NCBI RefSeq assembly: GCF_020622345.1
Contig: NZ_JACNMO010000011.1
Coordinates: 110,218 to 174,217, forward strand
Length of the DNA stretch: 64,000 nt
Reading direction: 5' to 3'
Origin: Roseobacter weihaiensis
GTDB taxonomy: Bacteria; Pseudomonadota; Alphaproteobacteria; Rhodobacterales; Rhodobacteraceae
In this document: positions 676 to 21,087 of the stretch, one piece after another
How positions within the stretch are numbered: the stretch's first letter is position 1
Layout: each line of letters begins with the position of its first letter
Program-made: the position numbers and the translations under genes
The notes under the pieces: generated by a model
What the model was told of the DNA's origin: nothing
What the model saw: the letters and a program-made list of their open reading frames with translations, nothing else
Databases searched by the model: none

Positions 676-1341
676 CTAGGTAATTCTACCTATGCCGCCG
701 CCCGGCTCGCTTTCAGCAAAAAGCTTGCAGGTGATCGACAAATCCACCAGTTCCGCGACCGAGTTGATGCACATTTTCTCCAGAATGCGGGCGCGGTGAT
801 GGTCAACCGTCCGGGGGCTGATCCCAAGATGGCGCGCGACATCCTTGCTGGAGCTGTTGGCGGGGTTGGAGACGAGAAACTGCGCAATTTCACGCTCCCG
901 ACCGGTCAACCTGTCGAACCGGGCTCTTGTATCTCTGGATTTATCATCGATTAGCCGTGCCTGCGCATCCAGCCTCAACGCGGTATCAATCCGCTTTATC
1001 AGCTTGTCCTGTCGAAATGGCTTTTCCAGAAAATCGACGGCGCCGTATTTCATTGCCTCGACCGCCTCCGGAACGCCGCCGTGGCCGGTGATAAAGATGA
1101 TCGGCAATGACCTGCCCCGGTTTACCAGCACCTGTTGCAGTTCAAGACCCGACATTTCGGGCAGGCCGAAATCCAGTATCAAACAGCCGGAGCGCTGGGG
1201 ATCATAGCCCTCAAGAAAAGCCTGCGCCGAGGCAAAAACCTCCGTTTCATAGCCGCGCGTGCGCAGGGCCCGGGACAGGGACGTGCGGATATCCTCATCG
1301 TCGTCAACGATGAATATGGTCGGGTCAGGCGCTGAATTCAT
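676..1341 (-). CDS. FixJ/NarL-like response regulator
   Basis: This 221-residue protein has a receiver domain (about 1-125) and a LuxR-type helix-turn-helix (about 150-210). Visible receiver residues are the acidic pocket VDDDED (12-17), the phosphoacceptor Asp57 in LILDFGLPEMSG, Thr85 in FITGHGG and Lys107 in EKPFR. The output domain contains LTGREREIAQFL and ISPRTVDHHR, typical of FixJ-type activators. The start overlaps the end of the sensor kinase gene by 17 bases, so the two are translationally coupled partners. Target genes cannot be read from the sequence. Confidence 0.93.
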   Translation of the reverse strand: MNSAPDPTIFIVDDDEDIRTSLSRALRTRGYETEVFASAQAFLEGYDPQRSGCLILDFGLPEMSGLELQQVLVNRGRSLPIIFITGHGGVPEAVEAMKYGAVDFLEKPFRQDKLIKRIDTALRLDAQARLIDDKSRDTRARFDRLTGREREIAQFLVSNPANSSSKDVARHLGISPRTVDHHRARILEKMCINSVAELVDLSITCKLFAESEPGGGIGRIT

Positions 1342-3803: not shown

Positions 3804-4733
3804 TCATGGCCTAAGGGGGGATACTCCATTGACATTGAGGAACACGGAATAAAGCGATGTCGTCCCGCAGATGAAAAGCCGGTTCAGTTTGGCCCCGCCA
3901 AAACAGACATTGCCCACCATCTCGGGGATCAGCACCTTGCCGATCAGCTCTCCGCTGGGGGCAAGGCAGTGCACCCCGTCTGCGGCAGAGCTCCAGATCC
4001 GCCCCTCCCGGTCCAGGCGGAACCCGTCAAAGACACCGCTGGTACACTCGGCAAAGACCGCGCCGCCCGACAGCGTTCCGTCCGCGTGAACACGGTGCTT
4101 GCGGATATGGGCCGGTCCGCCGGGCGTGTGGGTCACGCCGGTATCCGCGATATAGAGATGGCTTTCGTCCGGGGAAAACGCCAAGCCGTTGGGTTTGACG
4201 TAGTCGTCAGCGACGCGCGTGATCTCTCCTGACGGGGCGACGCGATAGACATGGCAGGCCCCTATTTCGCTTTCGGCGCGGTCGCCTTCATAGTCCATCA
4301 GAATGCCGTAGGACGGGTCGGTGAACCAGATCGAGCCGTCGGATTTCACCACCACATCGTTGGGCGAATTCAGCCGCTTGCCCTCGAAGCTGTCGGCGAT
4401 GACTGTGATCGAGCCGTCAAACTCCGTCCGGGTGACGCGCCGCGTCAGATGTTCACAGGACACCAGTCGGCCCTGCCGGTCGACGGTATGGCCATTGGCG
4501 TTCTGCGAAGGCTGGCGGAAGGTCGATACCGATCCGTCAGTTTCGTCAAACCGCAGCATCCGGTTGTTGGGGATGTCAGACCAGAGCAGGTAGCGGCCGG
4601 GCGCAAACCACACAGGGCCTTCAGACCAGCGCGCCCCGGTCCACAACCGCTCGACCCTGGCATGACCGATCAGACAGTCGTTGAACTGCGGATCAAGCGC
4701 TTCAAATCCCGTGCCGTCGAGAATGCCGTACAT
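3804..4733 (-). CDS. SMP-30/gluconolactonase/LRE family hydrolase
   Basis: The product (309 residues) belongs to the SMP-30 six-bladed propeller family, calcium- or zinc-dependent lactonases of sugar catabolism. Family motifs are visible: WSEGPVWF with the N-terminal metal-binding Glu, SPNDVVVKSDGSIWFTDPSYG and KPNGLAFSPDES. The ATG at 4733 is chosen because AGGAGAG lies 6-10 bases upstream; longer frames would run into the neighbouring gene. It overlaps the b561-like gene by 32 bases and is the last gene of the sugar ABC operon. It probably opens a lactone formed from the imported or periplasmically oxidised sugar. The exact substrate is unknown. Confidence 0.88.
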   Translation of the reverse strand: MYGILDGTGFEALDPQFNDCLIGHARVERLWTGARWSEGPVWFAPGRYLLWSDIPNNRMLRFDETDGSVSTFRQPSQNANGHTVDRQGRLVSCEHLTRRVTRTEFDGSITVIADSFEGKRLNSPNDVVVKSDGSIWFTDPSYGILMDYEGDRAESEIGACHVYRVAPSGEITRVADDYVKPNGLAFSPDESHLYIADTGVTHTPGGPAHIRKHRVHADGTLSGGAVFAECTSGVFDGFRLDREGRIWSSAADGVHCLAPSGELIGKVLIPEMVGNVCFGGAKLNRLFICGTTSLYSVFLNVNGVSPLRP

Positions 4734-5448
4734 CTTTTCTCTCCTGTGAAGGTCCATCTCTGCGCACGCCCCACCCCGGATGGGACAGCCGGTTGCCTGG
4801 CAGATCAGGGTCCGGGCCCCAGATCGCCTGATAGGTATCCACCGCCATGCCGCGTCTTTGCAAGCTGATAAAGACAATGACCAGCGCAGGCCACCAGAGC
4901 GCCAGCATCACCCACATCCAGTTGGGCGCGTTCGCTTTCCAGAGACCGAGTAGAATTGTGACCGCAGCCAAAAGCAGCACGCCGTACCCGATGGCCTTGT
5001 GGAGCGCTTCGAACACGCGCCGCCAGAGGGTCATGTCATAGTGATCACCGTGCAGGCTGCCATCCGGTGCCGGAGCGGACGGCCCGCCTTTGGTGCCGCG
5101 AAAAATGCCCAGAAGCACCTGTACGGCCAGCCCGGCCAGCACGCCGTAGCCCAACCCGTTGTGCAGGCTCATCTGCGACAGATCAGGAGGCAGCACCAAC
5201 ACCAGACCGATCGCCGACAACACGACGACCAGAACCTGCCCTTTCCAATGCACCTGCCACCAAAGCTGCACATCCAGCACGCGCGGCCAGTCCTGGCCCG
5301 GCAACACCTTGAAGTAACGCGCGATGATAACGGCAAGCGGTGCGATGACGCCCCATGCCAACACCATGGAGCGCGCATGCCATGACACCGCAAACCCCAC
5401 GTCATGTGCGCGTTGGGCGTCGATGGGGGAAAGCAACCACTCCCACAT
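4702..5448 (-). CDS. Cytochrome b561-like membrane protein in sugar ABC operon
   Basis: This is a 248-residue integral membrane protein with about five hydrophobic segments. Histidines recur at helix ends (SWHARSMVLAWG, WWQVHWKGQ, LHNGLGYGV, EALHKAIGYGV), the pattern expected for bis-heme b561 domains that pass electrons across the membrane. It lies one base after the MalG-like permease gene and overlaps the lactonase gene. An electron carrier between a sugar permease and a lactonase suggests oxidation of the sugar at the membrane; this is inference. The C-terminal 50 residues are hydrophilic and not conserved-looking. Confidence 0.72.
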   Translation of the reverse strand: MWEWLLSPIDAQRAHDVGFAVSWHARSMVLAWGVIAPLAVIIARYFKVLPGQDWPRVLDVQLWWQVHWKGQVLVVVLSAIGLVLVLPPDLSQMSLHNGLGYGVLAGLAVQVLLGIFRGTKGGPSAPAPDGSLHGDHYDMTLWRRVFEALHKAIGYGVLLLAAVTILLGLWKANAPNWMWVMLALWWPALVIVFISLQRRGMAVDTYQAIWGPDPDLPGNRLSHPGWGVRRDGPSQERKDVRHSRRHGI

Positions 5449-5449
5449 A

Positions 5450-6385
5450 TCAGCCCTTTACCGCACCTGCGGTCATGCCGGTGATGATCTGGCGCGAGGC
5501 AAACAGGGTAAAGATGATGGGCGGGATGGCCAGCAACATGCCCGTGGCCATGATGACCCCCCATTCGACGTTGAACTCGCTCATGTTGTTCACGATCAGA
5601 ATGGGTACCGTTCTTGTGTTGCGGTCTGAGAGGGCAGAGGCCAGCAGGTATTCGTTCCAAGCAATCCGGAAGGTAAAGATCGCCGCTGCCGCCAGACCCG
5701 GCTTGATGAGCGGCAGGACAACCTTGAAGAACACCTGAAACGGGCCCGCGCCATCGACGCGGGCGGCCTCTTCCAGGCTGCGGGGCACCTGCACGATAAA
5801 GCTCTGCAAGATCCAGATGACAAAGGGCAGGTTCATCGCCACATAGACCAGAATGATGCCGGAATGGGTTCCAGCGAGGCATACATCGCCGCGGCCACCA
5901 AAGGTGTCACGGATAAAGCCGCCGATGAGGCCGTCGCGGTCCAGGCAGAACTCGTTGTTCCACAGACCAAAGACCGGAACCAAGAGCACCGCCGGCGGCA
6001 CCATGCGGACCATCAGCGTGGTCAGCGACACCGTGTCCCGTCCCATGAACCGAAACCGCACCAGCGCGTAGGCGGCCATGCAGCCGATCACCAATGTCAG
6101 CAGCGTTGAGATCAGCGCGATGATCAGCGAGTTGATGAAGGCGCCCCCGAATTTCAAGGCGCAGAAATCCAGATGCTCCGGCTCGTACCAAAGGATGTCG
6201 CAAAGGGCTGTCTCATAGTTCTGGATGGTCGGCAGAAAGATCAGCCCCGTCGTGCCCGAGATGATGTCCACGTCGAGCTTGAAGCTGTTGACGAACATCA
6301 ACAGAACCGGCCCCACCGACATGAACACCAAAAGCGCAATGATGGCATAGAAGGCCGGATTTTGCTTTTCATGCGCCTGCGACAT
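5450..6385 (-). CDS. Carbohydrate ABC transporter permease (MalG-like)
   Basis: The 311-residue protein has six predicted membrane helices and the binding-protein-dependent permease signature EEAARVDGAGPFQVFFKVVL (EAA loop), which contacts the ATPase. The family is CUT1. It differs from most MalG proteins in longer loops with cysteines (CDILWYEPEHLDFCALKF near residue 60 and a second pair near residue 150), which may form periplasmic disulfides. It overlaps the upstream MalF-like gene by one base and forms the channel with it. Confidence 0.92.
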   Translation of the reverse strand: MSQAHEKQNPAFYAIIALLVFMSVGPVLLMFVNSFKLDVDIISGTTGLIFLPTIQNYETALCDILWYEPEHLDFCALKFGGAFINSLIIALISTLLTLVIGCMAAYALVRFRFMGRDTVSLTTLMVRMVPPAVLLVPVFGLWNNEFCLDRDGLIGGFIRDTFGGRGDVCLAGTHSGIILVYVAMNLPFVIWILQSFIVQVPRSLEEAARVDGAGPFQVFFKVVLPLIKPGLAAAAIFTFRIAWNEYLLASALSDRNTRTVPILIVNNMSEFNVEWGVIMATGMLLAIPPIIFTLFASRQIITGMTAGAVKG

Positions 6386-7296
6386 CAGCTTTCCTCCTCG
6401 ACGGCGGCGCGGATGCGGGCGGCGCGTGCTTCCTGAAGGCGGGTAAAGGCAAACATCGCGAGCGTCAGCGCCAGTAGCAGGATCAGCAGGTAGTTCGACA
6501 TCGCCGCCGCCACGCCCAGCTCGCGGAACTCGGTGGCGGTGCGAGAGATGCGCAGGGCGAGGATCTCGGTCGAGAGGCCCGGGCCGCCTTCGGTCATGAC
6601 CAGAATAACCTCAAGCACCTTGAACGCGTCGATCAGGCGCAAGAGACCTGTCACGATCAGCACCGGCATCATCAGCGGCAGTTTGATGTGCCAGATCTGC
6701 TGCCAGGCGGTGGCACCGTCAATGCGAGCGGCCTCCAGCGCCGAGCGCGGCAGCGATTGCAGGGCGGCCAGCGCCAGAATGAAGATAAACGGTGTCCACT
6801 GCCAGATGTCGGCGATGATGACGGACATCAGCGCGTGATTGCCCAGCCAATCCACCGTTGGCAGGCCGAGGCTGTCGAGCATGCGATTGAAGGTGCCGAC
6901 CGTCGGGTGGTACATGTAGCGCCACATCAGGCCCACCACGACAGGCGCGATCATCATCGGCAGGATGAACAGCGTCCGCAGCACGGACATACCGCGAATA
7001 TTGCGATCCAGCAGCAACGCCAGCCCGACACCGATCAGCATCTCCAGCGTCACCACAAAGAAGGCGAAAGTCAGCGTGACCGACAGGCTTTCCCAGAAAT
7101 TCGGATCGCCCCAGAGTGTGACGTAGTTCTTGAGCCCGACAAACTCGGCCTCGCCGATGGTCTGGCTGGGAGACCAGTCGCGAAAGCTGCCCCAGATCAT
7201 GTAGCCCAGCGGGTACATCAGGGCGATGGCCATGATGACGACGGCAGGTGCCATAAAGAGATAAGGGGTCAGGCGGTTGGCCACGGCGATGCGCAT
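6385..7296 (-). CDS. Carbohydrate ABC transporter permease (MalF/UgpA-like)
   Basis: This inner-membrane CUT1 permease has 303 residues when read from ATG 7296 (MRIAVANRLTPYLFMAPAVV), where the first membrane helix begins. A longer frame adds only 16 hydrophilic residues and has no good ribosome site. The EAA loop reads LEAARIDGATAWQQIWHIKL. It pairs with the MalG-like permease immediately downstream, and both serve the binding protein encoded upstream. Six helices are predicted, as usual for the family. Confidence 0.92.
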   Translation of the reverse strand: MRIAVANRLTPYLFMAPAVVIMAIALMYPLGYMIWGSFRDWSPSQTIGEAEFVGLKNYVTLWGDPNFWESLSVTLTFAFFVVTLEMLIGVGLALLLDRNIRGMSVLRTLFILPMMIAPVVVGLMWRYMYHPTVGTFNRMLDSLGLPTVDWLGNHALMSVIIADIWQWTPFIFILALAALQSLPRSALEAARIDGATAWQQIWHIKLPLMMPVLIVTGLLRLIDAFKVLEVILVMTEGGPGLSTEILALRISRTATEFRELGVAAAMSNYLLILLLALTLAMFAFTRLQEARAARIRAAVEEES

Positions 7297-7336
7297 GGGC
7301 TCACACTCTCTTTCATTGCTGGACCAGCGAGGGGAC

Positions 7337-7361
7337 CGGGGCACGCACGACGGGTGCCCCG
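7337..7361 (-). terminator. Hairpin between binding-protein and permease genes
   Basis: A perfect 8-bp stem (CGGGGCAC at 7337-7344, GTGCCCCG at 7354-7361) lies just downstream of the binding-protein stop codon and before the permease start. There is no T-run, so it probably protects the upstream mRNA or only partly stops transcription, giving more binding protein than permease. Confidence 0.5.
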
Positions 7362-7374
7362 ATCAACGGCAGGG

Positions 7375-8703
7375 TTACTGCCAGGTGTAGTAGCCCGCCT
7401 CTTCCATCACGGCGCGGGTCCGGTCTGCCACGCCGTCCAGCGCTTCCTGGATATCGAGGCCCTCGGTCAGCACCTTGGACATGGTTGTCCCGATGTCCGC
7501 GTTGATCTTGCCCCAGACCGGGATGATCGGACGCCAGTCCGGGTCGGCATATTTCAACGCTTCCCCAAAGGTGGCCGAAAAGGGGAATTTCTCGTTCAGG
7601 CCGGCATCCTGATAGGTCGAGAACCGCGAAGGGTTGCCGCCTTCCATCGCCACCATGAGATCACCCTTTTTTGATGTGAGCCACTGCATCAGCAGAAAAG
7701 CCGCCTCCTTGTTTTCGGCATTCTTGGGAATCGCGATGCCAAAGCCGCCGGTCTGGCTGCCCCGGCGCACGCCCTTGGGGTGCATCGCATAACCCACCTT
7801 GCCCACCACACTGGACCGGTCCGGGTTCTCGAAACCGGGCATGAAGGCGATGGAATCAAGGAACATCGCCGACTGACCATTTGAGAAGGACGCCGCCGCC
7901 TCTGAGGGGCCAAAGCTCATCGCGCCCTCCGGGCCGCATTCAACGATAGTTTTCAGCGCATTGGCCGCTTCGACACCGGCCTCATTGTTGATGATCGGGT
8001 TCCAGGCCTCGTCAAAGACACGTCCGCCCAGCGGGGCCAGATGCAGCAGGAATGCGTGGCTGGCCTGATGGCCCGAGGCCGCGCGCGAGGCCATGCCCCC
8101 CATACCGGGCTCAAGCTCGGGGATCTTGCAGGCCGCTTCGAGCAGTTGCTCATAGGTCTCAGGCTCGGCCAGCCCGTGCTTTTCAAAGATGTCCTTGCGG
8201 TAGGCCAGCACCGAGGTCTCCGACCCGAAGGGAATGCCGAAAAGCGACCCCGTGGGTCCCGGCAGGTAGCCTTTCTCGCCCCCCGCCACGCCGATATTCT
8301 GCACATAGCCGTCGATCAGGTCTTCGGCGTCATAATTGGGGTCCGCCAGCTTTGGGTCCATGAAATATCTGGCGAGGTTTTCCAGCTGGTCGGCAAAGAC
8401 ATAGTCTGCCTTTGAGAACACAACGTAGGAGATCAGGTCATATTCGCCCTCATCCTGCGCCAGCTCAAGCGTCTGACGTTCACGCATCTTGAGGTAGGGT
8501 AACTGGTCGACCTCTACCTCGATCCCGGTTTCCCTGATAAACTCCGGCAGCACCTTGATGGCCGCATCGTAATGCGGATGCGCGGGGAAGTTCACAATCA
8601 GTGTCGTGCCCTCGTACTCCGCATAAGGATTGGCCAGTGCCGTCCCCGCCATCAGGACGGCTGTGGCACTTGCCAACGCCGTCACCTTGAATGATTTAGA
8701 CAT
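7375..8703 (-). CDS. Sugar ABC transporter substrate-binding protein (family 1)
   Basis: The precursor has 442 residues with a Sec signal peptide (basic MSKSFK, hydrophobic stretch, cleavage after GTALA near residue 25). The mature protein has the fold pattern of family-1 extracellular binding proteins (MalE/UgpB type), with the conserved late segments FGIAIPKNAENKEAAFLLMQWLTS and GGNPSRFS. It captures the sugar in the periplasm for the two permeases encoded downstream. The ligand is unknown. An AGGAGG-like ribosome site precedes the start. Confidence 0.92.
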   Translation of the reverse strand: MSKSFKVTALASATAVLMAGTALANPYAEYEGTTLIVNFPAHPHYDAAIKVLPEFIRETGIEVEVDQLPYLKMRERQTLELAQDEGEYDLISYVVFSKADYVFADQLENLARYFMDPKLADPNYDAEDLIDGYVQNIGVAGGEKGYLPGPTGSLFGIPFGSETSVLAYRKDIFEKHGLAEPETYEQLLEAACKIPELEPGMGGMASRAASGHQASHAFLLHLAPLGGRVFDEAWNPIINNEAGVEAANALKTIVECGPEGAMSFGPSEAAASFSNGQSAMFLDSIAFMPGFENPDRSSVVGKVGYAMHPKGVRRGSQTGGFGIAIPKNAENKEAAFLLMQWLTSKKGDLMVAMEGGNPSRFSTYQDAGLNEKFPFSATFGEALKYADPDWRPIIPVWGKINADIGTTMSKVLTEGLDIQEALDGVADRTRAVMEEAGYYTWQ

Positions 8704-8724
8704 GTATTCCTCCCATTGATTGAC

Positions 8725-9822
8725 TTATTTGCTTTGGATCGCGTCTTCGCTTTCGCGATCAAACAGATGCACCCGGTTCGGCGTGATCCGGAACCGCAAG
8801 GTTTGCCCCAGCGCCATTGGTGTCTCGGAGTTCATCTCGACCGTGACTTGATCCGCCCCGCATTGGCACAGCAATACAGATTGCGCGCCGACGTATTCCG
8901 ACACCATCACATCGAGGGTCAGCGCCTGATCGCTTGGAGCCTCCGCGTCGAAAACCAAATCCGACGGCCGGACCCCCAAAACAACCTCCCGCACGCGATG
9001 TGCCTTGGCGGCTTGCGCCTTTTCATCCTGCAACCGCAGGGAAAAACCGTTGCCTTTGACGAAAACGTCACCCGCTTCCTCTTTGATCTCCCCGTTCAGA
9101 AAGTTCATCGGCGGCATGCCCAGAAAGCCTGCGACGAATTTGTTGACCGGCCTTTTGAACAACGCTTCGGGGGAGCCCTGTTGCTGAATGTACCCGCCGT
9201 GCATCACGACAATCCGGTCCGCCAGAGTCATGGCTTCGATCTGGTCATGGGTCACGTAGATCATGTTTTTCTCGACCCGCTGGCTCATCAACGCAAGCTC
9301 TGCCCGCAGTTGACCCCGCAGCTTGGCGTCAAGATTGGAGAGCGGCTCGTCAAAAAGAAAGATGCCGCTGTCCTTTGCCAGCGCCCGCGCCATGGCGACC
9401 CGCTGGCGTTGCCCGCCCGATAAAGCCCCCGGTTTGCGGTGCAGGAAGTCGGTCAGGCCGACCATATCGGCAACCTCTTTGACCTTGGCGTGAACCTCCG
9501 CCTTGGGACGGCGGGCCAGCCGCAGCGCAAAGGAGATATTCTGCGCCACGTTCATATGCGGATAGAGCGCGTAATCCTGAAAAACCATCGCCAGATCACG
9601 ATCTTTGGGTTCAAGATGGCTGACGGGCTTGCCATCGACGTAAATCTCGCCTTCGGTGACATCTTCCAGTCCCGCGACCATGCGCAATGTCGTGGATTTC
9701 CCGCAACCGGAGGGGCCGACCAGCACGGTGAACTCGTTATCCGCCATCTCAAGCTCAATGCCGTGCAGCACCTCCACCTCACCGTATCTTTTGATGAGGT
9801 TATCCAGCTGAATTGTTGGCAT
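8725..9822 (-). CDS. Sugar ABC transporter ATP-binding protein (MalK/UgpC type)
   Basis: The product has 365 residues when started at ATG 9822, which has GGGAGG nine bases upstream; further upstream the frame runs through the operator and is not coding. Walker A (GPSGCGKST, about 36-44), the signature LSGGQRQRVAMARAL, Walker B (FLFDEPLSNLD) and the H-loop (YVTHDQIEAM) are all intact. A C-terminal TOBE/OB regulatory domain (about 240-360) marks the CUT1 class. It is the first gene of the ABC operon and energises the two permeases. Confidence 0.93.
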   Translation of the reverse strand: MPTIQLDNLIKRYGEVEVLHGIELEMADNEFTVLVGPSGCGKSTTLRMVAGLEDVTEGEIYVDGKPVSHLEPKDRDLAMVFQDYALYPHMNVAQNISFALRLARRPKAEVHAKVKEVADMVGLTDFLHRKPGALSGGQRQRVAMARALAKDSGIFLFDEPLSNLDAKLRGQLRAELALMSQRVEKNMIYVTHDQIEAMTLADRIVVMHGGYIQQQGSPEALFKRPVNKFVAGFLGMPPMNFLNGEIKEEAGDVFVKGNGFSLRLQDEKAQAAKAHRVREVVLGVRPSDLVFDAEAPSDQALTLDVMVSEYVGAQSVLLCQCGADQVTVEMNSETPMALGQTLRFRITPNRVHLFDRESEDAIQSK

Positions 9823-9841
9823 GGCGGCCTCCCATTCCCCC

Positions 9842-9879
9842 GTGTTACCGGTCACAGTAACATTTGTGACCGGTAACAC
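9842..9879. promoter_or_regulatory. Double LacI-type operator (15-bp perfect inverted repeat)
   Basis: Two perfect 15-bp arms, 9842-9856 and 9865-9879, flank an 8-bp spacer. Each arm is itself close to palindromic (TGTTACC/GGTCACA), so this looks like two adjacent LacI-family sites. It lies 20 bases before the ATPase start and downstream of the LacI gene on the same strand. Repression of the ABC operon by that LacI protein is the natural reading. Confidence 0.8.
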
Positions 9880-9920: not shown

Positions 9921-10943
9921 TTATCGGGTGCTGTCGCGGAAGCTCAGATCGGCATCAACGGTCACATGTCGCGGTTTCAGGCTGCCCTCCCCTGACAGAA
10001 GGTCCGCGATCAGATGCCCTGTCGACTGCCCGATGCGTCGCGGATCCACCTTTACGGTGGTGATGGTCGGGGTGGAAAAGCGCGACACCTCAAAGTTGCC
10101 AAAGCCCGCAACCCCGATATCTTCGGGCACCGATTTGCCCATCGCGCGCAGCGCCGACAGTATGCCGAACGCGGGCGCATCAGAGACGCAGAAGATGCAA
10201 TCTGTCTCGGGATACTGTGCCAAAAGCGCCTTGCCCGCCGCGGCACCATCCTCAATGGAGAGCGGCGGCTTGCCGATCTTCAGCACCCGGTGCGCCGGCA
10301 ATCCCGCCGCCGCCATCGCCTGAACAAACCCTCGGCGCCGCGCCGCGCCGCGCGTCCAGGCGTCCTCTGCCTCCCCCAGAAAGGCGATGTTGCGATAGCC
10401 TTTGGCAATCAGCGCGCGCGTCATATCCGCTGCCGCTTCGCAGTTGGAAAAGCCGATGGTGTGCCCGATGGGCGTCTCGGGGCGTTCCCACAGTTCAATG
10501 ACCGGCACGGCGGCATCCTTGAGCAGCTCGATCGTGCGCGGGGAATGCCCATCGTAAGAGAGCACGATCGCCTCCGGCCTGCGCCGCAGCATGGTCTCGA
10601 CCAGGGTTTCTTCACGGGCGGTGGAGTAATCGGTGTAACCGAGCAGGATCTGCTGGCCGATCTTTTCCAGCTCCTCGGTCAGGGCCTGAACAGTCTCGGC
10701 AAAATGCAGATTGTTGAGCGAGGGCACCAGAACGGCGACGAACCCGGACCGCTTGGTGGTCAGGCTGCCCGCCATCTGGTCGGGCACGTAATTCATGTCG
10801 CGCACGACCTTGAGGATGCGGTCGCGGGTTTCCTTTGAAACGGGGCTGTCCTGCCTGAGCGCCCGTGAGACCGTCATACGCGACACACCCGCAGCCCGCG
10901 CCACGTCGCGCATCGTTACCTGAGGTTTCCGGGTATCGGCCAC
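9921..10943 (-). CDS. LacI-family transcriptional regulator of the first sugar operon
   Basis: The protein has 340 residues. The N-terminal helix-turn-helix reads VTMRDVARAAGVSRMTVSRAL, followed by a hinge and a sugar-binding-like effector domain. GTG 10943 is chosen because GGAG stands five bases upstream; an apparent start further up would lie across the operator and terminator. Matching operators lie in front of this gene (10957-10972) and in front of the ABC genes (9842-9879), so autoregulation plus repression of the transporter is likely. The effector is unknown. Confidence 0.9.
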   Translation of the reverse strand: MADTRKPQVTMRDVARAAGVSRMTVSRALRQDSPVSKETRDRILKVVRDMNYVPDQMAGSLTTKRSGFVAVLVPSLNNLHFAETVQALTEELEKIGQQILLGYTDYSTAREETLVETMLRRRPEAIVLSYDGHSPRTIELLKDAAVPVIELWERPETPIGHTIGFSNCEAAADMTRALIAKGYRNIAFLGEAEDAWTRGAARRRGFVQAMAAAGLPAHRVLKIGKPPLSIEDGAAAGKALLAQYPETDCIFCVSDAPAFGILSALRAMGKSVPEDIGVAGFGNFEVSRFSTPTITTVKVDPRRIGQSTGHLIADLLSGEGSLKPRHVTVDADLSFRDSTR

Positions 10944-10956
10944 ATATGCTCCAGAA

Positions 10957-10972
10957 GTGTTATCGGTAACAC
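10957..10972. promoter_or_regulatory. LacI-type operator before the lacI gene
   Basis: GTGTTATCGGTAACAC is a near-perfect 16-bp palindrome that shares the GTTA-N4-TAAC core with the double operator at 9842-9879. It sits 13 bases upstream of the GTG start of the LacI gene, consistent with autoregulation. Confidence 0.7.
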
Positions 10973-10996
10973 CTTGCTGGAACCCGAGCGTGTAAT

Positions 10997-11027
10997 CAAG
11001 AGGTGCCACGGCGGGTGGCACCTCTTG
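10997..11027 (-). terminator. Terminator-like hairpin after the LuxP-like gene
   Basis: A perfect 13-bp stem (CAAGAGGTGCCAC at 10997-11009, its complement at 11015-11027) with a 5-base loop lies seven bases after the stop codon of the last ribose-type operon gene. The T-run is on the plus-strand side (GTTTT), so read on the minus strand it lacks a strong U-tract. It still separates the operon from the LacI gene. Confidence 0.7.
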
Positions 11028-11033
11028 CAGGTT

Positions 11034-12173
11034 TTATCGCGACAACGCGCCGACGCCGGAAAAACGGAAGGCTTCCTGCTCCAATGCGTCAATGTCCTCG
11101 ACACTCATCTGATCGTGGGCCACCGTGATGCGGCCCAGAAAGACCAGCGGCAATTCATCCGCGCGCCCTTCCAGATCCGCCCGGATCGCCTCGGCCGTGG
11201 CCGCGCCCACATCGTCGCCCATCCGCATCGGGGTGGCATTGAGCTCTCCGCGCCGGATGGCCTCAAGCTCCAGCCCGGTGCCGCCCCAGCCGGTGGAAAA
11301 GACGTCCTTTTCCTTGCCCATGGCGATCTGAGCCTCGACAGACCCCATTGCCATAGCTGTGTTGGCGTTGTGGATGATCTCCGCTTCCGGATAGGCCTGC
11401 AGGATCAGCGAGGTCCCTTCAAAGCCACCCTCGCGCTGATACTCGCCATAGTGTTCATAGGCCGTAGTCCAGCCCCCCTTCTCTTCGATGCAGGTCTTGA
11501 AATCCCCCGAGCGCTGGTTGTCCGTGATCCCCGGAATGCCGCGGTTCAGCGCCATGGTCTTACCCTCGCCCAAGCGGTCCAGCATGTAGTCGCACATCAC
11601 CAGCGCGCCCGCAGCAGAGGAGAAGTCAAACCACACATCAGGCTGATTCTCCAGATCCTTGAGCGGGGTGTGAAACGCCCAGACATAGGTGGTGAAGCCA
11701 TCATTGCCCGACAGCTTGTCGATGTTGTCCGCCTGAATTTCCAGCTCCGACGGGCCGAAGATGACATAGTCGTAGAGGTCCGCGTCCTGCGCCACCTGAT
11801 TGGCATAGGTCGCCTGCAATGAATGTTCGATCTGCCGAGAGGCAAATTCGGTGGTTTCAAAAGCGATCCCCAACTCCTCCAGCCGTTTGGTCAGCGCCAG
11901 ATAATTGCGCGCCCAGAAATCCGACGTATCGGCGGACGGGTAGATCAGGGCGATTTGCAGCGGGTTTTCCAGCGTTCCCGCATAGGGCTCGGCCGCCGCG
12001 CCGACAACGCTTTGCAGCGCTTCCAGTTTGCCTTCGGCGTTGACTTCATCGGGGACCCAGTAGTTGCGGTCCGCGATGTCAGGCAGTTCTTTCAGCGGCA
12101 GATGCCCGTCGGCAAAGGCGCTGCCGGCCAGCGCAAGGCTTGCGACCAGTCCGGTTGTCATCAGGTATTTCAT
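11034..12173 (-). CDS. LuxP-like periplasmic binding protein of an ABC transporter
   Basis: The 379-residue precursor has a signal peptide ending AGSAFADG (about residue 21). It is a type-1 periplasmic binding protein. The segments IALIYPSADTSDFWARN (74-90) and STGWGG (293-298) followed by PMRMGDDVG (315-323) closely match what I recall of Vibrio LuxP, the AI-2 receptor. Ligand-contact positions that appear kept are Ser84, Trp87, Arg221, Thr272, Trp296 and Arg317; others differ. It is the last gene of a ribose-type ABC operon, with no LuxQ kinase nearby. The ligand may be AI-2-like or another furanose sugar; this is inference. Confidence 0.75.
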   Translation of the reverse strand: MKYLMTTGLVASLALAGSAFADGHLPLKELPDIADRNYWVPDEVNAEGKLEALQSVVGAAAEPYAGTLENPLQIALIYPSADTSDFWARNYLALTKRLEELGIAFETTEFASRQIEHSLQATYANQVAQDADLYDYVIFGPSELEIQADNIDKLSGNDGFTTYVWAFHTPLKDLENQPDVWFDFSSAAGALVMCDYMLDRLGEGKTMALNRGIPGITDNQRSGDFKTCIEEKGGWTTAYEHYGEYQREGGFEGTSLILQAYPEAEIIHNANTAMAMGSVEAQIAMGKEKDVFSTGWGGTGLELEAIRRGELNATPMRMGDDVGAATAEAIRADLEGRADELPLVFLGRITVAHDQMSVEDIDALEQEAFRFSGVGALSR

Positions 12174-12256: not shown

Positions 12257-13375
12257 TCAACCGCTTGGATTGGTCGTTCCGGCGAACAAGCCCCCCAGTG
12301 CCAAAAGGGCAATGAGCAGACCTATGAGTGCCGCACTAAAGCGCATCATCTTCTGGCCATCGGGCGTCTTGAGACCGGCAAGCCAGCCCCCGGCCCCATC
12401 GCGGTCCTTCTTCTGCATCCAGGTATAGAGCGCGACTGAACTGACAATCACCACGCCCGAGGCCACGGACTGCCAGAAAAACTCGATCCGCAGGGTCACC
12501 AGCGCGTTGATCATCATCGACAAGAGCAGCACGCCCGCAAAGGACCCCAGCATCGACGCCCGCCCCCCGAAAAGCGATGTACCGCCCACCACAACTGCCG
12601 CGATGACATGCAGGTTGAAATAGGGGGCCGAAGTGGCCTGAATCGCGTTCAGCTTGCCTGTGAGCAGGATGCCTCCCAGCGCGGCACAGGCCCCGCAGAG
12701 CACATAGGCATAGACTTTGTGGCGCTTGACCGCGATGCCGGTCAGTTCTGCGGCTTCGGGGTTCGAGCCAATCGCAATGGTATAGCGCCCGAAATAGGTG
12801 CGGGTCAGCAGCACATAGCCTGCGATCATCGTGGCGATCCCGATCAGAACGGGAATGGGGACAAAGCCCGGGATCTGCCCCCGACCGATGTCGGTCAGAA
12901 AATCCGGGAACCGCGCCAGCACCAGCCCCTTGGCCAGCACCAGCGCGAGCCCGCGATAGACCAGATCCATCGCAAGTGTCCCGATGAGATCAGGTACGTT
13001 GAAGCGCGTGATGATGAGACCGTTGATAAGCCCCATCAGGGCGCCCAACAGCAGCGCAATGGGCACCGCGACATAGACCGAAAACCCGTATTGCTTGATC
13101 AGAAAGGCCATCATGATACCCGAGAGCGCGGCAATTGACCCGATGGACAGATCGATGCCGCGCTGGGTGATGACAAAGGTCATCGCCATGGCCATGGGCA
13201 TGTAAAGTGCTGCATCGAGCAGGATCAGGTTCAGGTTGGTGGCCCGGAAATAGCGCGCGGGCTCGGCGACGCCCATAAAGAGCAGGATCGCAAGGATCAT
13301 CACCATCGGGCCGATGATGGCGATATAGGGCTCCAGCCGCTCGGTCGTCGTGCGGGTTTGTGTGGTTGTGTTCAT
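12257..13375 (-). CDS. Ribose-type ABC transporter permease (RbsC family)
   Basis: The 372-residue membrane protein has the pattern of BPD_transp_2/RbsC permeases: a segment ITQRGIDLSIGSIAALSG and later GGTSLFGGRASMLGSFAGV, which is the conserved C-terminal loop. About ten helices are predicted. It is about 30-40 residues longer than usual, with a C-terminal extension around MQKKDRDGAGGWLAG and one further helix. Its start overlaps the stop of the single-domain ATPase gene (TGATG), so the two are made together. It probably takes substrate from the LuxP-like protein encoded next. Confidence 0.9.
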   Translation of the reverse strand: MNTTTQTRTTTERLEPYIAIIGPMVMILAILLFMGVAEPARYFRATNLNLILLDAALYMPMAMAMTFVITQRGIDLSIGSIAALSGIMMAFLIKQYGFSVYVAVPIALLLGALMGLINGLIITRFNVPDLIGTLAMDLVYRGLALVLAKGLVLARFPDFLTDIGRGQIPGFVPIPVLIGIATMIAGYVLLTRTYFGRYTIAIGSNPEAAELTGIAVKRHKVYAYVLCGACAALGGILLTGKLNAIQATSAPYFNLHVIAAVVVGGTSLFGGRASMLGSFAGVLLLSMMINALVTLRIEFFWQSVASGVVIVSSVALYTWMQKKDRDGAGGWLAGLKTPDGQKMMRFSAALIGLLIALLALGGLFAGTTNPSG

Positions 13376-14252: not shown

Positions 14253-15296
14253 TTATTTTCCCCAGATCGCCGAATAGGCGGCGCGGTAGGGGATGTCGGG
14301 ATCGAATGCGTTGCTCTCGCCCAGCTTTTCCAGCCCGCCAGAGGTCACAAGCGCTGGCGACGTAATATACCCGGAGCAGGGCTCACCCTGCATCGCGCGG
14401 TTCAGCTCATCGACAAGCTGCCAGCCCTGCAGGTTGAGCGGCTCTGCCACGGTGATCGACTGATAGCCGCCGGAGCGGATCCGCTGAAAGGCGGCCTCGG
14501 AGCCGTCTCCGGCGGAGCCCGCTTTCGGCCCCTTGTCGGGCGAGAGGCCAGCGGCCGCAAGCGAGGGCCCCATGAAATCAAAGTAGAGATCATTGATCGC
14601 CAGCGCGTGGGTCCAGCTGTCGCCGTATTTCTGCAACAGGCTTGTCGTCAAAGGCCCCATGCGGGTCGAGGTATCGGCAATCGGCGTATCCACATATTCA
14701 AGGACCTTGCCGCCCGCCGCCTCCACGGTTTCCTTCAGCCGGTCGGCCTTGTCGATGGCAATCTGATAGGTGGAATCGGTAAAGATCACCACCCCGATAT
14801 CCTTGCCACCATCCTCAAGCGCCCACTCGGCGGCAACTTCCGAAACGGTCATCGCATCGGTTGAGACATTGGCAAAGATACCTCCCGGTGCATCGCAGCC
14901 GATTTTGGGGCCGGAATGCCAGGCGACCATGGGAATACCCGCGCTCACCACCCCCTCAAGGGCGGCCTGCTGCTCGACCGCGTCAAAGCCGTTGATCACG
15001 ATGCCGTCCGCCTGCAAGGCCAGGGCTTGGCCGATGGCCGCCGTGCGCCCCTGGATCGAGCCTGCGCCGTCCAGCACCCGCAAATCCCAGCCGATGGTGG
15101 CTGCGGCCTCCTCCACGCCCGTGGTAACACCCAGAATACCGCCATTCTTGAGATCGCCCGCCACAACGACGATGGACTTGCCCTCGGCGGCGGCCGGTCC
15201 GGTGGTCGGACCGTCCCAGGCGGTCCCCGCCAGACCCGGTGTGACCGCCAGCGTGGTGCTCGCCAGCAAAGCACCTAGAAATGTTCGTTTAAGCAT
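14253..15296 (-). CDS. Ribose-type sugar ABC transporter substrate-binding protein
   Basis: The precursor has 347 residues with a signal peptide (MLKRTFLGALLASTTLAV, cleavage near residue 22). ATG 15296 has GGGAGG seven bases upstream and begins at the signal peptide; the longer frame would run into the permease gene. It is a type-1 periplasmic binding protein (Peripla_BP_4), with the typical middle segment ADGIVINGFDAVEQQAALE. The ligand is unknown. It lies between the RbsC-type permease upstream and the single-domain ATPase downstream, and most likely serves the upstream RbsA/RbsC pair. Confidence 0.9.
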   Translation of the reverse strand: MLKRTFLGALLASTTLAVTPGLAGTAWDGPTTGPAAAEGKSIVVVAGDLKNGGILGVTTGVEEAAATIGWDLRVLDGAGSIQGRTAAIGQALALQADGIVINGFDAVEQQAALEGVVSAGIPMVAWHSGPKIGCDAPGGIFANVSTDAMTVSEVAAEWALEDGGKDIGVVIFTDSTYQIAIDKADRLKETVEAAGGKVLEYVDTPIADTSTRMGPLTTSLLQKYGDSWTHALAINDLYFDFMGPSLAAAGLSPDKGPKAGSAGDGSEAAFQRIRSGGYQSITVAEPLNLQGWQLVDELNRAMQGEPCSGYITSPALVTSGGLEKLGESNAFDPDIPYRAAYSAIWGK

Positions 15297-15324
15297 GTGA
15301 ATCCTCCCGTGGATGTAAAATGCG

Positions 15325-16347
15325 TCAGCGCTTTTCAGCGCCTTTTCTGCGTTGGGCGTAGCCTGCGATGCCGATGGCAATCAGCAAGGTCACCCCGTTG
15401 AACAGCGGCTCAACCCAGAACGAGCCGCCAAACTGCTGGATGCCGGAAATCCCCACCGCGAGGATCGCGACACCGACAATGGTGCCCCAGACATTGACCC
15501 GCCCCGGCTTGATCGTGGTGGAGCCCAGAAACGCCCCCACCAGCGCGGGCAGCAGGAATTCCAGACCCACCGACGCCTGCCCGATGCGCAGCTTGGCCGC
15601 CAGCAAAACCCCGGCCAGCGCCGTCATCGTGCCGGAGGCTACAAAGGCGCCGATCACGAACTTGCGGGTCGGGATTCCATTCAGTTGCGCTGCCCGCTGG
15701 TTCGCACCGATGGCATAGAGGTAGCGACCAACGGGCGTGTATTCCAAAACGATCCACATCATCACGGTGATCGCCATCAGGTAATATCCGGTGATCGGCA
15801 GGCCGAAAACGAAGGTATTGTTGAGCGCGTAGAACCCGTCGGGCAAGACCCCGACCATCTGCCGCCCGCCGGTGTGCCACAGCGCCAGCGCATAGAGCAC
15901 GGTGCCGGTGCCCAAAGTGGCGATGAAGCTGTCGATCTTGGCAACTTCGACCAGCAGGCCATTGAGAAAGCCCGACAGCGCCCCTAGCAAGAGCACAAGC
16001 ATCACCGCCAAGGGCCACGGCATGCCAAAAAGCGTTTGCAGGCTGATCGCCAGAATATGCCACAACACGATGCCGTAGCCGACCGTCAGATCGATACGCC
16101 CTGCCGCCATGGGGATCATCGCGCCCAGAGACAGCAAGGCAATGATCGCCTTGTCGGACACGATGGACCGCAGGTTCAACATTGTGGGGAAGGTGTTCGG
16201 CAGCAGGATCGAGAACAGCGCAATCAGCAGAACCGTGAGAATGACCAAGCCGTAGACCGGGATAAAACGCAGGAGCCGACGGCCAAACGAGAGCCCCTTG
16301 AGCTCTGCCTTGGTGGGTTCCAGCGCACCGGAGTCAAGCGATTGCAT
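15325..16347 (-). CDS. Ribose-type ABC transporter permease (RbsC family)
   Basis: The protein has 340 residues and about ten membrane helices. Conserved points include AAGRIDLTVGYGIVLWH, where most RbsC proteins have G-[IV]-DLSVG, and the late segment FLGSTTIKPGRVNVWGT. ATG 16347 is preferred over a TTG at 16371 because AAGGA lies nine bases before it. It overlaps the end of the RbsA gene by 14 bases. Together with RbsA and the next binding protein it makes a complete importer. Confidence 0.9.
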   Translation of the reverse strand: MQSLDSGALEPTKAELKGLSFGRRLLRFIPVYGLVILTVLLIALFSILLPNTFPTMLNLRSIVSDKAIIALLSLGAMIPMAAGRIDLTVGYGIVLWHILAISLQTLFGMPWPLAVMLVLLLGALSGFLNGLLVEVAKIDSFIATLGTGTVLYALALWHTGGRQMVGVLPDGFYALNNTFVFGLPITGYYLMAITVMMWIVLEYTPVGRYLYAIGANQRAAQLNGIPTRKFVIGAFVASGTMTALAGVLLAAKLRIGQASVGLEFLLPALVGAFLGSTTIKPGRVNVWGTIVGVAILAVGISGIQQFGGSFWVEPLFNGVTLLIAIGIAGYAQRRKGAEKR

Positions 16348-17860
16348 GAGGCGCGTCCTTTTTGTCGGCAATGTTTCCGGCAGAGGCCGATTGGATGAGG
16401 TTTTCCGTGGTCAGCCGCGTGCCGCTGACCTCGTCAACAATCGCGCCCTGGCTGAACACGATGGCGCGATGGCAGATCGTTGCGATCTCTTCAAAATCGG
16501 TGGAGATGAGGAGGATCCCCACGCCCTTGGCCAAGGCCCGGTTCAGCAAGGCATAGATTTCGGCCTTGGCCCCGACATCCACCCCAGCGGTGGGGTCTTC
16601 GCAGAGCAGCAGGCGGCGGTTGGTGGCCAGCCAGCGCCCGATCACGACTTTCTGCTGATTGCCACCCGACAGCGCTTCGATCGCGAGGCTGGGGTCGTTT
16701 GGCGAGAGACCGAGCTCTGCTCCGATTGCTGCCGCCTGATCGGCTTCGGTCTTCGGGGACAGCAAATCCAACAAGGCTCGTCCGATGCCCTTGGGGTTGA
16801 GAAAAGTGTTTTCCCGGATCGACAGGCTCATCGCGACGGATTCCTCAGTGCGGTCCTTGGCCACCAAACCGACCCCGGAGGCCAACGCCTGCTGCGGAGA
16901 GGTCAGCCTGGGCGACACACCATCCAACATGACCCGCCCCTCAAAGCGCGCCAGTCCGAACAAAGCGCGTGAAATCACTTCGTGCCCTGCCCCGCGCAGC
17001 CCCACAAGGCCGACGATTTCATTGCGATGCAGTTCGAAATCCATGGGGCCGACCGACCCGACATGGAAACCCTCGAGGCTGAGGACGACAGGACCCGGTG
17101 CCTCCGCAGCCTTCACCGTGCTGCGGGTTTTGCGCCCAACGATCTTTTGGACCAGCTCTTCGGGGGTGGTGTGTTCAATGCTGCGCACCCCGACCATTTC
17201 ACCGTCGCGCAGCACCGCCACACGGTCGGCGATCTGAAAAATCTCATCGAGCCGGTGACTGACGTAAATCATGCCAACTCCTCTGTCCCGAAGGGGGCGA
17301 ATGGCCGCAAAAAGACGCTCCACTTCATCAGCAGGCAGTGAGGCGGTTGGCTCATCCAGTACCAGGAATTCACTATCGACCGCCAATGCACGGGCAATGG
17401 CGACCAGAGATTTTTCGGTCCGGGACAAATCCTCGACACGGGTTGTCGGATCAAAGGCGCAATCCACCTTGGCCAGCGCCCGGTTGGCAAATTTCTCCAC
17501 GTCAGCCCAGCGGATCAACCCCTTCCTGCGTGAAAACCCCAGCGCCAGCGCGATGTTCTCGGCCACCGTCATCCATTCGATCAACCCCAGGTCCTGATGG
17601 ATAAAGGCCACTTTCTGCCGCTCACCAAATCCGGCAGGGCGATGCTGGTAAGCCGCACCGTCGATCATGACACGCCCCTTGTCCGGTGCGTGAATGCCGC
17701 CCAGAACCTTGATGAGGGTGGATTTTCCAGCGCCATTCTCGCCCAAAAGCGCGACAATCTCACCACGCCCGACCGACAGCGAGACGTCCTTTAGCGCATA
17801 GGTGCCGCCAAAATGTTTATCTATGCCGTCGAAAAACAGACCTGATGTCAGGTTCTGCAT
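16334..17860 (-). CDS. Ribose-type ABC transporter ATP-binding protein (RbsA, two NBDs)
   Basis: This 508-residue protein contains two fused ATPase domains. The first has Walker A GENGAGKST and Walker B LVLDEPTASLP but an altered signature (LSRTEK). The second has a degenerate Walker A (GLRGAGHEV) and a good signature (LSGGNQQKVVIGRWL), the usual asymmetry of RbsA proteins. ATG 17860 is chosen because GGGAGGG precedes it by nine bases; the longer frame crosses the operator. It is the first gene of the operon and starts right after a LacI-type operator. Confidence 0.92.
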   Translation of the reverse strand: MQNLTSGLFFDGIDKHFGGTYALKDVSLSVGRGEIVALLGENGAGKSTLIKVLGGIHAPDKGRVMIDGAAYQHRPAGFGERQKVAFIHQDLGLIEWMTVAENIALALGFSRRKGLIRWADVEKFANRALAKVDCAFDPTTRVEDLSRTEKSLVAIARALAVDSEFLVLDEPTASLPADEVERLFAAIRPLRDRGVGMIYVSHRLDEIFQIADRVAVLRDGEMVGVRSIEHTTPEELVQKIVGRKTRSTVKAAEAPGPVVLSLEGFHVGSVGPMDFELHRNEIVGLVGLRGAGHEVISRALFGLARFEGRVMLDGVSPRLTSPQQALASGVGLVAKDRTEESVAMSLSIRENTFLNPKGIGRALLDLLSPKTEADQAAAIGAELGLSPNDPSLAIEALSGGNQQKVVIGRWLATNRRLLLCEDPTAGVDVGAKAEIYALLNRALAKGVGILLISTDFEEIATICHRAIVFSQGAIVDEVSGTRLTTENLIQSASAGNIADKKDAPHAIA

Positions 17861-17891
17861 CGCGAAATCCCTCCCTCGTCCGGGCAGTTGA

Positions 17892-17903
17892 GTTACCCGT
17901 AAC
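17892..17903. promoter_or_regulatory. LacI-type operator downstream of the rbsA promoter
   Basis: GTTACCCGTAAC is a 12-bp palindrome (GTTAC-2-GTAAC) that occurs again 57 bp away. It lies just downstream of the predicted minus-strand -10 box, where a bound repressor would block initiation. Confidence 0.75.
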
Positions 17904-17912
17904 GTTACGCTA

Positions 17913-17941
17913 ATGCTTGTCCCAAGAACGCCACCTGTCAA
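17913..17941 (-). promoter_or_regulatory. Predicted promoter of the ribose-type operon
   Basis: On the minus strand TTGACA (17941-17936) is followed after 17 bases by AAGCAT (17918-17913). The -35 box is perfect and the -10 box weak. It is flanked by the two identical LacI operators. Confidence 0.5.
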
Positions 17942-17948
17942 GCCCTAA

Positions 17949-17960
17949 GTTACCCGTAAC
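17949..17960. promoter_or_regulatory. LacI-type operator upstream of the second lacI gene
   Basis: This is the second exact copy of GTTACCCGTAAC. It lies 15 bases before the TTG start of the divergent LacI gene and just upstream of the -35 box of the ribose-type operon, so one repressor could control both directions, possibly by looping between the two sites. Confidence 0.75.
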
Positions 17961-17974
17961 GTAAGGATCCTGCC

Positions 17975-19012
17975 TTGAAAGAAAAGCTAATCAAAAACAA
18001 CAAGGTAAGCTTGCTTCAGGTGGCAAGGGCGGCGGGTGTGTCGAAGATGACCGCAAGCCGGGTTTTGCGGGGTGAGGGTGGGTATTCCGAGCAGACACGC
18101 ACACTGGTGATGCAAAAAGTCGACGAATTGGGCTATCTGCCGAATCGTCTCGCGACCGTGTTTGCGGGGGACAAAACCTCCACCTTCGTCGGGGTGTCCA
18201 TTCCCGATCTCGGCAATGAAGTCTTTGCGCATGTGCTTGAGGGCATTGATCGCAAGCTCGGCTCTTTCGACTATCAGTCGGTGCTGGGTCTTACGCAACA
18301 TACGCAAGAGGAAGAAGAAAGCTGGATCCGCACCGTGCTGTCCTGGCAACCGGCGGGGCTCATCCTGACCGGGCGATATCATTCCAAGCGCGCGACCGAA
18401 ATGCTGCGCAATGCGGGTATCCCGATTGTCGAAATCTGGGATCTGAACTCCAGCCCGCTCGATCTGAGTGTTGGGATCAACCACTTTGACAGCGGCTTTG
18501 ACATGGGCCGGTTTCTGATCGGCTGCGGCTACTCCAAGATCGGGTATGTGGGCACGTCACACGACACGGCCAGCGCCGCAACAACCCGGCTGGACGGGTT
18601 CTGCAAGGCGGTGGAAGGCGGCGGCGGGCAGGTCGCCAAGCAGCTCTGCCTGCATGACACGGCGACCTATTACCCGGGCTATTACGGGACAGAACAGCTT
18701 TTGGCCGCGGGCAGCGGGATCGAATGTATCTTCTATCAGAACGATGCGATGGCCTTTGGCGGCCTTCAATACTGCACGGCTCAAGGGATGCGCGTCCCTC
18801 AGGACATCGGCATTGCCGGCTGGGGGGATTTGCCAATCGCCTCCGTCTTGGATCAACGGTTGACCTCCATGCATGTCCCGCATCTGAAACTGGGCCAGAC
18901 AGCCGCAGAGATGATGATCGCCCGGCTCTCGAATGAGCCTGTAGACCCCTGCAAGGACATCGGGTTCCGCCTGATCCCCGGCAGCACGGTTTCGCACCCG
19001 ACCAACCGTTAG
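17975..19012 (+). CDS. LacI-family transcriptional regulator of the ribose-type operon
   Basis: The 345-residue protein starts with a TTG codon preceded by AAGGA at eight bases. The DNA-binding part reads VSLLQVARAAGVSKMTASRVLRG when taken in pieces (helix-turn-helix about 11-33), and the rest is a periplasmic-binding-protein-like effector domain. It is divergent from the ribose-type operon and both face the two GTTACCCGTAAC operators. It may also affect the glp-type operon downstream, but no copy of the operator is visible in front of that operon. Confidence 0.9.
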   Translation: MKEKLIKNNKVSLLQVARAAGVSKMTASRVLRGEGGYSEQTRTLVMQKVDELGYLPNRLATVFAGDKTSTFVGVSIPDLGNEVFAHVLEGIDRKLGSFDYQSVLGLTQHTQEEEESWIRTVLSWQPAGLILTGRYHSKRATEMLRNAGIPIVEIWDLNSSPLDLSVGINHFDSGFDMGRFLIGCGYSKIGYVGTSHDTASAATTRLDGFCKAVEGGGGQVAKQLCLHDTATYYPGYYGTEQLLAAGSGIECIFYQNDAMAFGGLQYCTAQGMRVPQDIGIAGWGDLPIASVLDQRLTSMHVPHLKLGQTAAEMMIARLSNEPVDPCKDIGFRLIPGSTVSHPTNR

Positions 19013-19208: not shown

Positions 19209-19257
19209 TGAAGCCGTCGGCGAAAGTCGGCTGACAAAAAATTTGGGAGGAGAAATG

Positions 19258-20991: not shown

Positions 20992-20998
20992 ACTGACC

Positions 20999-21026
20999 TG
21001 TGGCCCCGCTGAACCGCGGGGCCACA
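20999..21026 (+). terminator. Hairpin after glpV
   Basis: A perfect 11-bp stem (TGTGGCCCCGC at 20999-21009, complement at 21016-21026) lies eight bases after the glpV stop and before glpS. The following bases are AAAA, not T. It probably allows much more GlpV than membrane components to be made. Confidence 0.6.
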
Positions 21027-21087
21027 AAACCCGGTCAAAGCAGTGCATTCGCCGCTTTGACTCCAACGGCCCGAGGCTGGGGACACC

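Follow-up and report, generated by a model that had tools for sequence, protein, structure and literature searches.

What does a LuxP-like protein bind when it is encoded with an ABC permease and an ATPase? This question is raised by a solute-binding protein gene in the window, the 64,000-nucleotide stretch of Roseobacter weihaiensis DNA analyzed here, for which a preliminary description had proposed AI-2 as the cargo. We put the chance at about even that the LuxP-like protein passes a gluconate/idonate-type sugar acid or its lactone, and not AI-2, to its own permease. It is likely that this role is the uptake of a sugar acid as food and not the sensing of AI-2, because three of the nine AI-2 contacts of LuxP differ in the protein and because the motif found at the start of its operon is also present at the gluconate genes of E. 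coli.

Organization of the operon

In a six-gene operon that specifies two CUT2-type ABC importers, the gene for the LuxP-like protein comes last (Table 1). In minus-strand order, the operon encodes a two-domain ATPase, a permease, a second binding protein (SBP2), a single-domain ATPase, a permease and the LuxP-like protein. A Peripla_BP_4 protein, a BPD_transp_2 permease and an ABC ATPase share this operon, and the system is therefore an importer of the known CUT2 type. No relationship between SBP2 and the LuxP-like protein is detectable by BLAST. Beyond the inverted repeat lie the genes for the second LacI regulator, the CUT1 importer and a b561-like protein, and then an SMP-30-like gene, whose product is the sole enzyme that we recognized near the operon. 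The NCBIfam models that best match the single-domain ATPase of this CUT2-type importer are about 500 residues long.

Table 1. Features of the LuxP-like operon and its surroundings (window positions)
Feature	Position	Strand	Remark
CUT1 importer, b561-like membrane protein and SMP-30/lactonase-like gene	3804..9879	-	
Second LacI-family regulator, GntR/IdnR-like	9921..11021	-	True start probably within the listed ORF
Third operator-like site, GTTATCGGTAAC	10959..10970		Lies ahead of where the downstream LacI gene probably starts
Perfect 12-bp inverted repeat, 5-base loop	10998..11026		Directly 3' of the LuxP-like gene; terminator-like
LuxP-like solute-binding protein, 379 aa	11034..12173	-	N-terminus signal-peptide-like, judged by eye
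CUT2-type permease (BPD_transp_2)	12257..13375	-	
Single-domain ABC ATPase, 251 aa	13375..14130	-	Matches the N-terminal half of RbsA/YtfR-type ATPases
Second binding protein SBP2 (Peripla_BP_4)	14253..15380	-	Listed TTG start uncertain
Second CUT2-type permease	15325..16371	-	
Two-domain ABC ATPase (AraG/RbsA type)	16334..17941	-	ATG at 17860 is the likely start
Operator-like site GTTACCCGTAAC, copy 1	17892..17903		
Operator-like site GTTACCCGTAAC, copy 2	17949..17960		
Divergent LacI-family regulator, GntR/IdnR-like	17975..19012	+	

The permease and the single-domain ATPase lie directly upstream of the LuxP-like gene, as the preliminary description had stated, and no LuxQ kinase was recognized among the scanned neighbors in the window. 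A count of related loci made with a single LuxQ reference (0/80) was insensitive, finding only 1/7 LuxP loci at 50% identity, so it was redone with seven LuxQ-type references. These match in one of the 80 related loci (L009, 28% identity over 378 residues), compared with seven of eight LuxP loci. A Pfam LuxQ-domain search across genomes returned zero matches, and control genomes were equally without a match. The presence of importer genes, with no phosphorelay partner seen, agrees with the earlier proposal that this is an uptake system and not a phosphorelay.

Elsewhere in the window, a 781-aa sensor histidine kinase is encoded at 1325-3670 (best NCBIfam match FixL, 197 bits; cut-off 850), and a 382-aa ORF at 25740-26888 has weak BlaR1-type sensor similarity (24 bits; cut-off 400). 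On the plus strand, positions 19243-24879 hold a further importer-like cluster with two UgpC-like ATPases, a 582-aa ORF without any NCBIfam match and two more ORFs.

Fold and ligand pocket of the LuxP-like protein

The closest solved relative of the protein is LuxP, the AI-2 receptor of Vibrio, which is its best match by both sequence and fold over the whole protein and bears out its designation as LuxP-like. Ribose-binding proteins are the next-best solved structures, with matches that miss an N-terminal stretch, and the score against the RbsB equivalog model (38 bits) is far below the cut-off of 337. LsrB is no close relative either, E. coli LsrB being matched with an E value of 0.049 over 56 residues. 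Although the system shares a CUT2-type ABC importer architecture with Lsr (LsrACDB, LsrK, LsrG), it is distinct from it, as previously suggested: references for LsrK, LsrG, LsrR and LsrF have no match in any of the 80 related loci.

The AI-2 contacts of LuxP, which we take from the 2002 crystal structure to be Q77, S79, W82, N159, R215, S265, T266, W289 and R310, are only partly preserved. Measured against this list, six of nine are kept (S84, W87, R221, T272, W296 and R317, the residues singled out in the preliminary description), whereas Q77 is replaced by D82, N159 by A166 and S265 by N271. With six contacts only, these residues do not place the protein within LuxP; the four LuxP rows in our alignment carry the complete set. 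The window pocket (D82, S84, W87, A166, R221, N271, T272, W296 and R317) is found in 194/194 alignment rows and, by direct check of every locus, in 80/80 related loci. The 194 rows consist of the best 120 of 1198 database matches, 72 ORFs (one from the window and 71 from the loci) and two plasmid orthologs; they overlap, and nine of the 80 loci, for which antisense ORFs had been picked, are absent from them. Among those best 120 of 1198 matches, four carry the LuxP name from an annotation source.

A passage of PMC6452917 names N159, R215 and R310 as key hydrogen-bonding residues in LuxP, and an excerpt of PMC3794749 describes R215 and R310 as contacting a sulfone inhibitor as they do the borate form of AI-2. 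A conserved alanine at a site where LuxP hydrogen-bonds AI-2, combined with a retained arginine pair, would fit a different and possibly acidic ligand. The pocket varies in more distant relatives. The Vibrio THAF protein (57% identical) carries the window set, while protein P0190 (49% identical) has D82 and N271 as in the window but, like LuxP, an Asn at 166. In a clade of LuxP-like proteins from Lsr-type operons, all 70 rows have E at position 82 and N at position 166, and position 271 is S in 55 and N in 14.

Phylogeny and neighboring clades

We built a tree of 32 rows, in which the outgroup branches are very long and the root is therefore uncertain. The window clade (support 97/99) is joined with the Vibrio THAF protein and P0190 at 100/99, and the Lsr-operon rows form one clade at 98/98. 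These two clades are sisters (95/89) outside the nine LuxP rows, subject to the uncertain root. The LuxP rows are themselves weakly grouped (23/79), and with that grouping and that root the tree does not assign the window protein to LuxP. A large sensor-like protein is encoded beside seven of the nine LuxP tree rows. Of the checks that had been proposed, the comparison by sequence and fold places the protein nearest to LuxP, and not with LsrB or RbsB, with three contacts lost, and the tree places it outside the LuxP rows. The binding protein belongs to a LuxP-like clade that is distinct from LuxP.

The sister clade is represented by a LuxP-like protein of Roseicitreum antarcticum that is 38.8% identical to the window protein. 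Its operon (L086:3268-13164) encodes LsrK (784 bits; cut-off 528), an LsrR-like regulator (292; cut-off 486) and an LsrG-like protein (110; cut-off 135), of which only LsrK exceeds its cut-off, and further holds a permease, a single-domain ATPase, an RbsD-like gene and a class II aldolase-like gene. Four more genomes (L133, L134, L135 and L159) share this type of operon. LsrK, LsrG, RbsD, permease, binding protein and ATPase are present at 50% identity or more in 5/5, the Roseicitreum reference being counted, and the operons mostly also hold class II aldolase genes. The clade is rare: among 390 genomes of the order, three have close members (E < 1e-180), and among 394 of the family there are four, one of which (G981) is, by its place, apparently Roseicitreum. 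The single-domain ATPase architecture recurs here, and these proteins resemble the window protein in their 39% identity and in the same permease and ATPase, but differ in keeping N159 and in lying beside LsrK, LsrG-like and RbsD-like genes. Judged from gene content, the sister clade is likely an AI-2 importer with a LuxP-type receptor, and the idea of AI-2 import fits this clade better than the window clade.

Other relatives adjoin sensor-like proteins. In Vibrio sp. THAF191d and THAF190c (L085:8212-12990; L187), homologs of both binding proteins adjoin a HAMP-GGDEF-EAL protein, and by eye no permease or ATPase of the window importer type lies alongside; these binding proteins may serve sensing rather than import. 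The LuxP-like proteins of six alphaproteobacterial genomes (L139-L144) adjoin LuxQ-type-sensor-like proteins of 728-1116 aa, which match each other or V. fluvialis LuxQ.

Conservation of the operon and its neighboring enzymes

The related loci are the best 80 of 113 relatives from one genome collection, at 75 to 88% identity with one at 74%. By taxonomy, 57 belong to Roseobacteraceae or Paracoccaceae, three to Gammaproteobacteria and the remainder to other Alphaproteobacteria. The LuxP-type trio of binding protein, permease and ATPase is present in 76/80 loci and the second importer in 62/80; all six genes, in identical order and strand, are present in 58/80. A CUT1 binding protein is found in 26 of the 80 and SMP-30 in 40.

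Neighboring enzymes were tallied at 50% identity or more to reference proteins from these neighborhoods, with 14 of the 80 loci being shorter than 21 kb. At least one of four idn/gnt enzymes is encoded in 26/80 loci, and at least three of four members of a set comprising a sugar-acid dehydratase, an aldolase, a dehydrogenase and PdxA in 11/80. Either set is present in 36/80 loci, or 52/80 with SMP-30 counted, and neither is present in the available flanks of 44/80. Neither set was found in 20 hand-picked 20-kb stretches from four genomes, in five Lsr-type loci or in seven LuxP loci. An earlier tally at a loose threshold (41/80 for the idn enzymes) was discarded in favor of 26/80, the short-chain dehydrogenase (SDR) reference having also matched an unrelated SDR at 30%. 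Only gluconokinase exceeds its cut-off among the four idn/gnt enzyme models: the neighbor reference scores 197 bits against the GntK/IdnK model (cut-off 113.75), compared with 322 for gluconate 5-dehydrogenase (408), 378 for L-idonate 5-dehydrogenase (469) and at best 191 for the 2-hydroxyacid dehydrogenase models (455). One locus (L166) places the LuxP-type importer after SMP-30, IdnD, GhrB, IdnO and GntK homologs and lacks the second importer.

A model search of the R. weihaiensis genome found no GntK/IdnK gluconokinase, and a gluconokinase over the cut-off is present in 9 of the 39 genomes searched, this one included. The R. weihaiensis genome also has no LuxS, and its best LsrK match scores 174 bits against a cut-off of 528.

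Regulators and operator motif

Both LacI proteins match GntR/IdnR models best, with GntR equivalog scores of 258 and 243 that lie below the cut-off of 400. The divergent regulator scores 243 for GntR and 219 for IdnR, compared with 147 for the better RbsR model. The divergent region contains two copies of GTTACCCGTAAC, compared with 0.00 expected by chance from shuffles, and a strict flanked pattern occurs in the 5.35-Mb R. weihaiensis genome only at these two promoter sites. A looser form, GTTAYSSRTAAC, is present in 57 of 58 divergent regions of related loci, with two or more copies in 51. The 80 loci, 1.58 Mb in total, contain 160 such sites, compared with 56 in about 85 Mb from 18 same-genus genomes (R. 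weihaiensis included). Because the loose motif is genome-wide no commoner than a reversed control (56 versus 57 in the 18 genomes), the weight of the motif lies in its placement and in the strict flanked pattern. Control DNA of 400 kb contains zero sites, a weak result by itself at a genus-wide density of about 0.7 per Mb. One loose site in the R. weihaiensis genome (L210, 1701) falls within a gene that seems unrelated.

R. pomeroyi and P. inhibens S4Sm have two operator-like sites each. In E. coli K-12, two sites 13 bp apart precede gntK, one lies between idnD and idnK and another falls where edd begins; the lsr and rbs stretches contain none. Passages of PMC4052901 report that GntR sites at gntKU overlap, with a spacing of about 13 bp, and that the effectors of GntR and IdnR are structurally similar. 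Gluconokinase is not a fixed partner: of eight same-genus genomes bearing one, seven carry an operator-like site at most about 5 kb away, the exception being G491. G772 has an idnO-gntK cluster with a site pair 14 bp apart. Where the two importers are separated, in G454 (L162, L209), operator-like sites are found at each, and in G778 the second importer has its own site pair, the 16 kb examined containing no LuxP-type trio. Of the seven same-genus genomes with the binding protein, one (G726) has no site on that contig; its two sites (L212) lie beside other genes.

The promoter thus carries a putative gluconate/idonate-type operator, while the sub-threshold regulator scores and the lack of a gluconokinase in the genome stop short of placing the operon in a gluconate/idonate regulon. 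The likeness to the E. coli gnt/idn regulon extends to the regulator type and, in some related loci, to GntK, IdnO and IdnD homologs, but not to the transporters, which in E. coli are listed as GntU and IdnT with no ABC importer.

Candidate cargos

The sugar-acid reading can be stated as a mechanism. The LuxP-like protein would be exported to the periplasm and close on its ligand, with R221 and R317, the counterparts of the borate-holding arginines of LuxP, gripping the acid group. Import of the sugar acid would fall to the permease together with a dimer of the single-domain ATPase, and a GntR/IdnR-type LacI repressor would silence both importers until bound by the sugar acid or its product. 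The cargo would then be degraded by idn/gnt-type or dehydratase-type enzymes. We count for this reading the pocket replacements, the separate clade, the neighboring enzymes and the occurrence of the operator motif at gnt/idn promoters. We count against it the absence of a gluconokinase from the genome, the 44 loci with neither enzyme set, the LacI scores below the GntR cut-off, the G726 contig without a motif and the LuxP-type Asn of P0190. A LacI operator may also persist although its effector changes.

That the operon is instead a roseobacter uptake system for ribose or another pentose is unlikely, though it has the strongest single piece of contrary evidence behind it. N271 aligns, by eye, with N190 of RbsB, which we take to be a ligand residue, and ribose-binding proteins are the runners-up in the structural comparison. 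The R. pomeroyi orthologs, SPOA0253-0258, were matched to the operon by gene order and product, and the matching of tags also used SPOA0249, given as TRAP dctP in a passage of PMC10041152. Table 2 of PMC9038784 lists SPOA0253, SPOA0254, SPOA0256, SPOA0257 and SPOA0258 as ribose, citing Landa 2017, and a passage of its text includes ribose among experimentally verified influx systems; this listing is the strongest evidence against a sugar-acid cargo. However, the operon shares with RbsABC the CUT2 importer family and differs from it in regulator type and motif: the RbsB score is far under its cut-off, the GntR and IdnR models outscore the better RbsR model, the E. coli rbs stretch lacks the motif, and no ribokinase was recognized in the conserved neighbor clusters inspected. 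That the same genes carry some other furanose or acidic sugar, such as a pentonate or an acid sugar of four carbons, is quite unlikely. The 11 loci with at least three of the four genes of the dehydratase-type set (PdxA-like, dehydratase, DHDPS-type aldolase and aldehyde dehydrogenase) point in this direction, as do L083 and L084, which also carry this set, and a HIBADH-like neighbor that also matches L-threonate dehydrogenase (182 bits; cut-off 350), but L083 and L084 keep the gluconate/idonate-type operator motif.

For the window clade, import of AI-2 is unlikely, and we regard it as the least probable cargo of those weighed here. Both borate-binding arginines are among the six contacts kept, the sister clade is encoded with LsrK and LsrG, and an excerpt of PMC12268683 reports AI-2 binding by three annotation-named LuxP proteins, a result that we also count against the sugar-acid reading. 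Against AI-2 stand the loss of N159, Q77 and S265 in every row and locus checked, the absence of Lsr partners from the 80 loci, the lack of LuxS and of an LsrK over the cut-off in the genome, and the gluconate/idonate-type neighborhoods and operator motif. The AI-2 cargo of the preliminary description is therefore the part that we do not retain.

A wider reading, which we offer tentatively and consider possible, is that the LuxP lineage consists mainly of ABC-import receptors for oxidized sugars, with AI-2 sensing as a side branch. The window clade would bind a gluconate/idonate-type acid, with the borate arginines on its carboxylate; the sister clade would be a LuxP-type AI-2 importer feeding LsrK; and the Vibrio branch would couple both binding proteins to a GGDEF-EAL sensor.

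Significance

Among the literature matches listed, drawn mostly from freely available papers, no title or abstract beginning describes an ABC importer of LuxP type or tests ligands on the window clade. An early lead, a Phaeobacter inositol importer as the nearest characterized relative, found nothing in the literature and was dropped. In the part of PMC9038784 concerned with co-culture of R. pomeroyi and a diatom, the noon/night ratios of the orthologs are 21.4 to 55.7, within the range of other verified uptake systems there. The true cargo of these orthologs, given their expression in this co-culture, bears on the flow of carbon from algae. According to passages of PMC12268683, the three AI-2-binding proteins were drawn from 267 that annotation called LuxP, and ocean habitats yielded the most LuxP identified in this way. 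The sister clade offers a candidate LuxP-type AI-2 importer that is directly testable. If the window clade binds sugar acids, some marine proteins reported as AI-2 listeners may belong to feeding systems instead.
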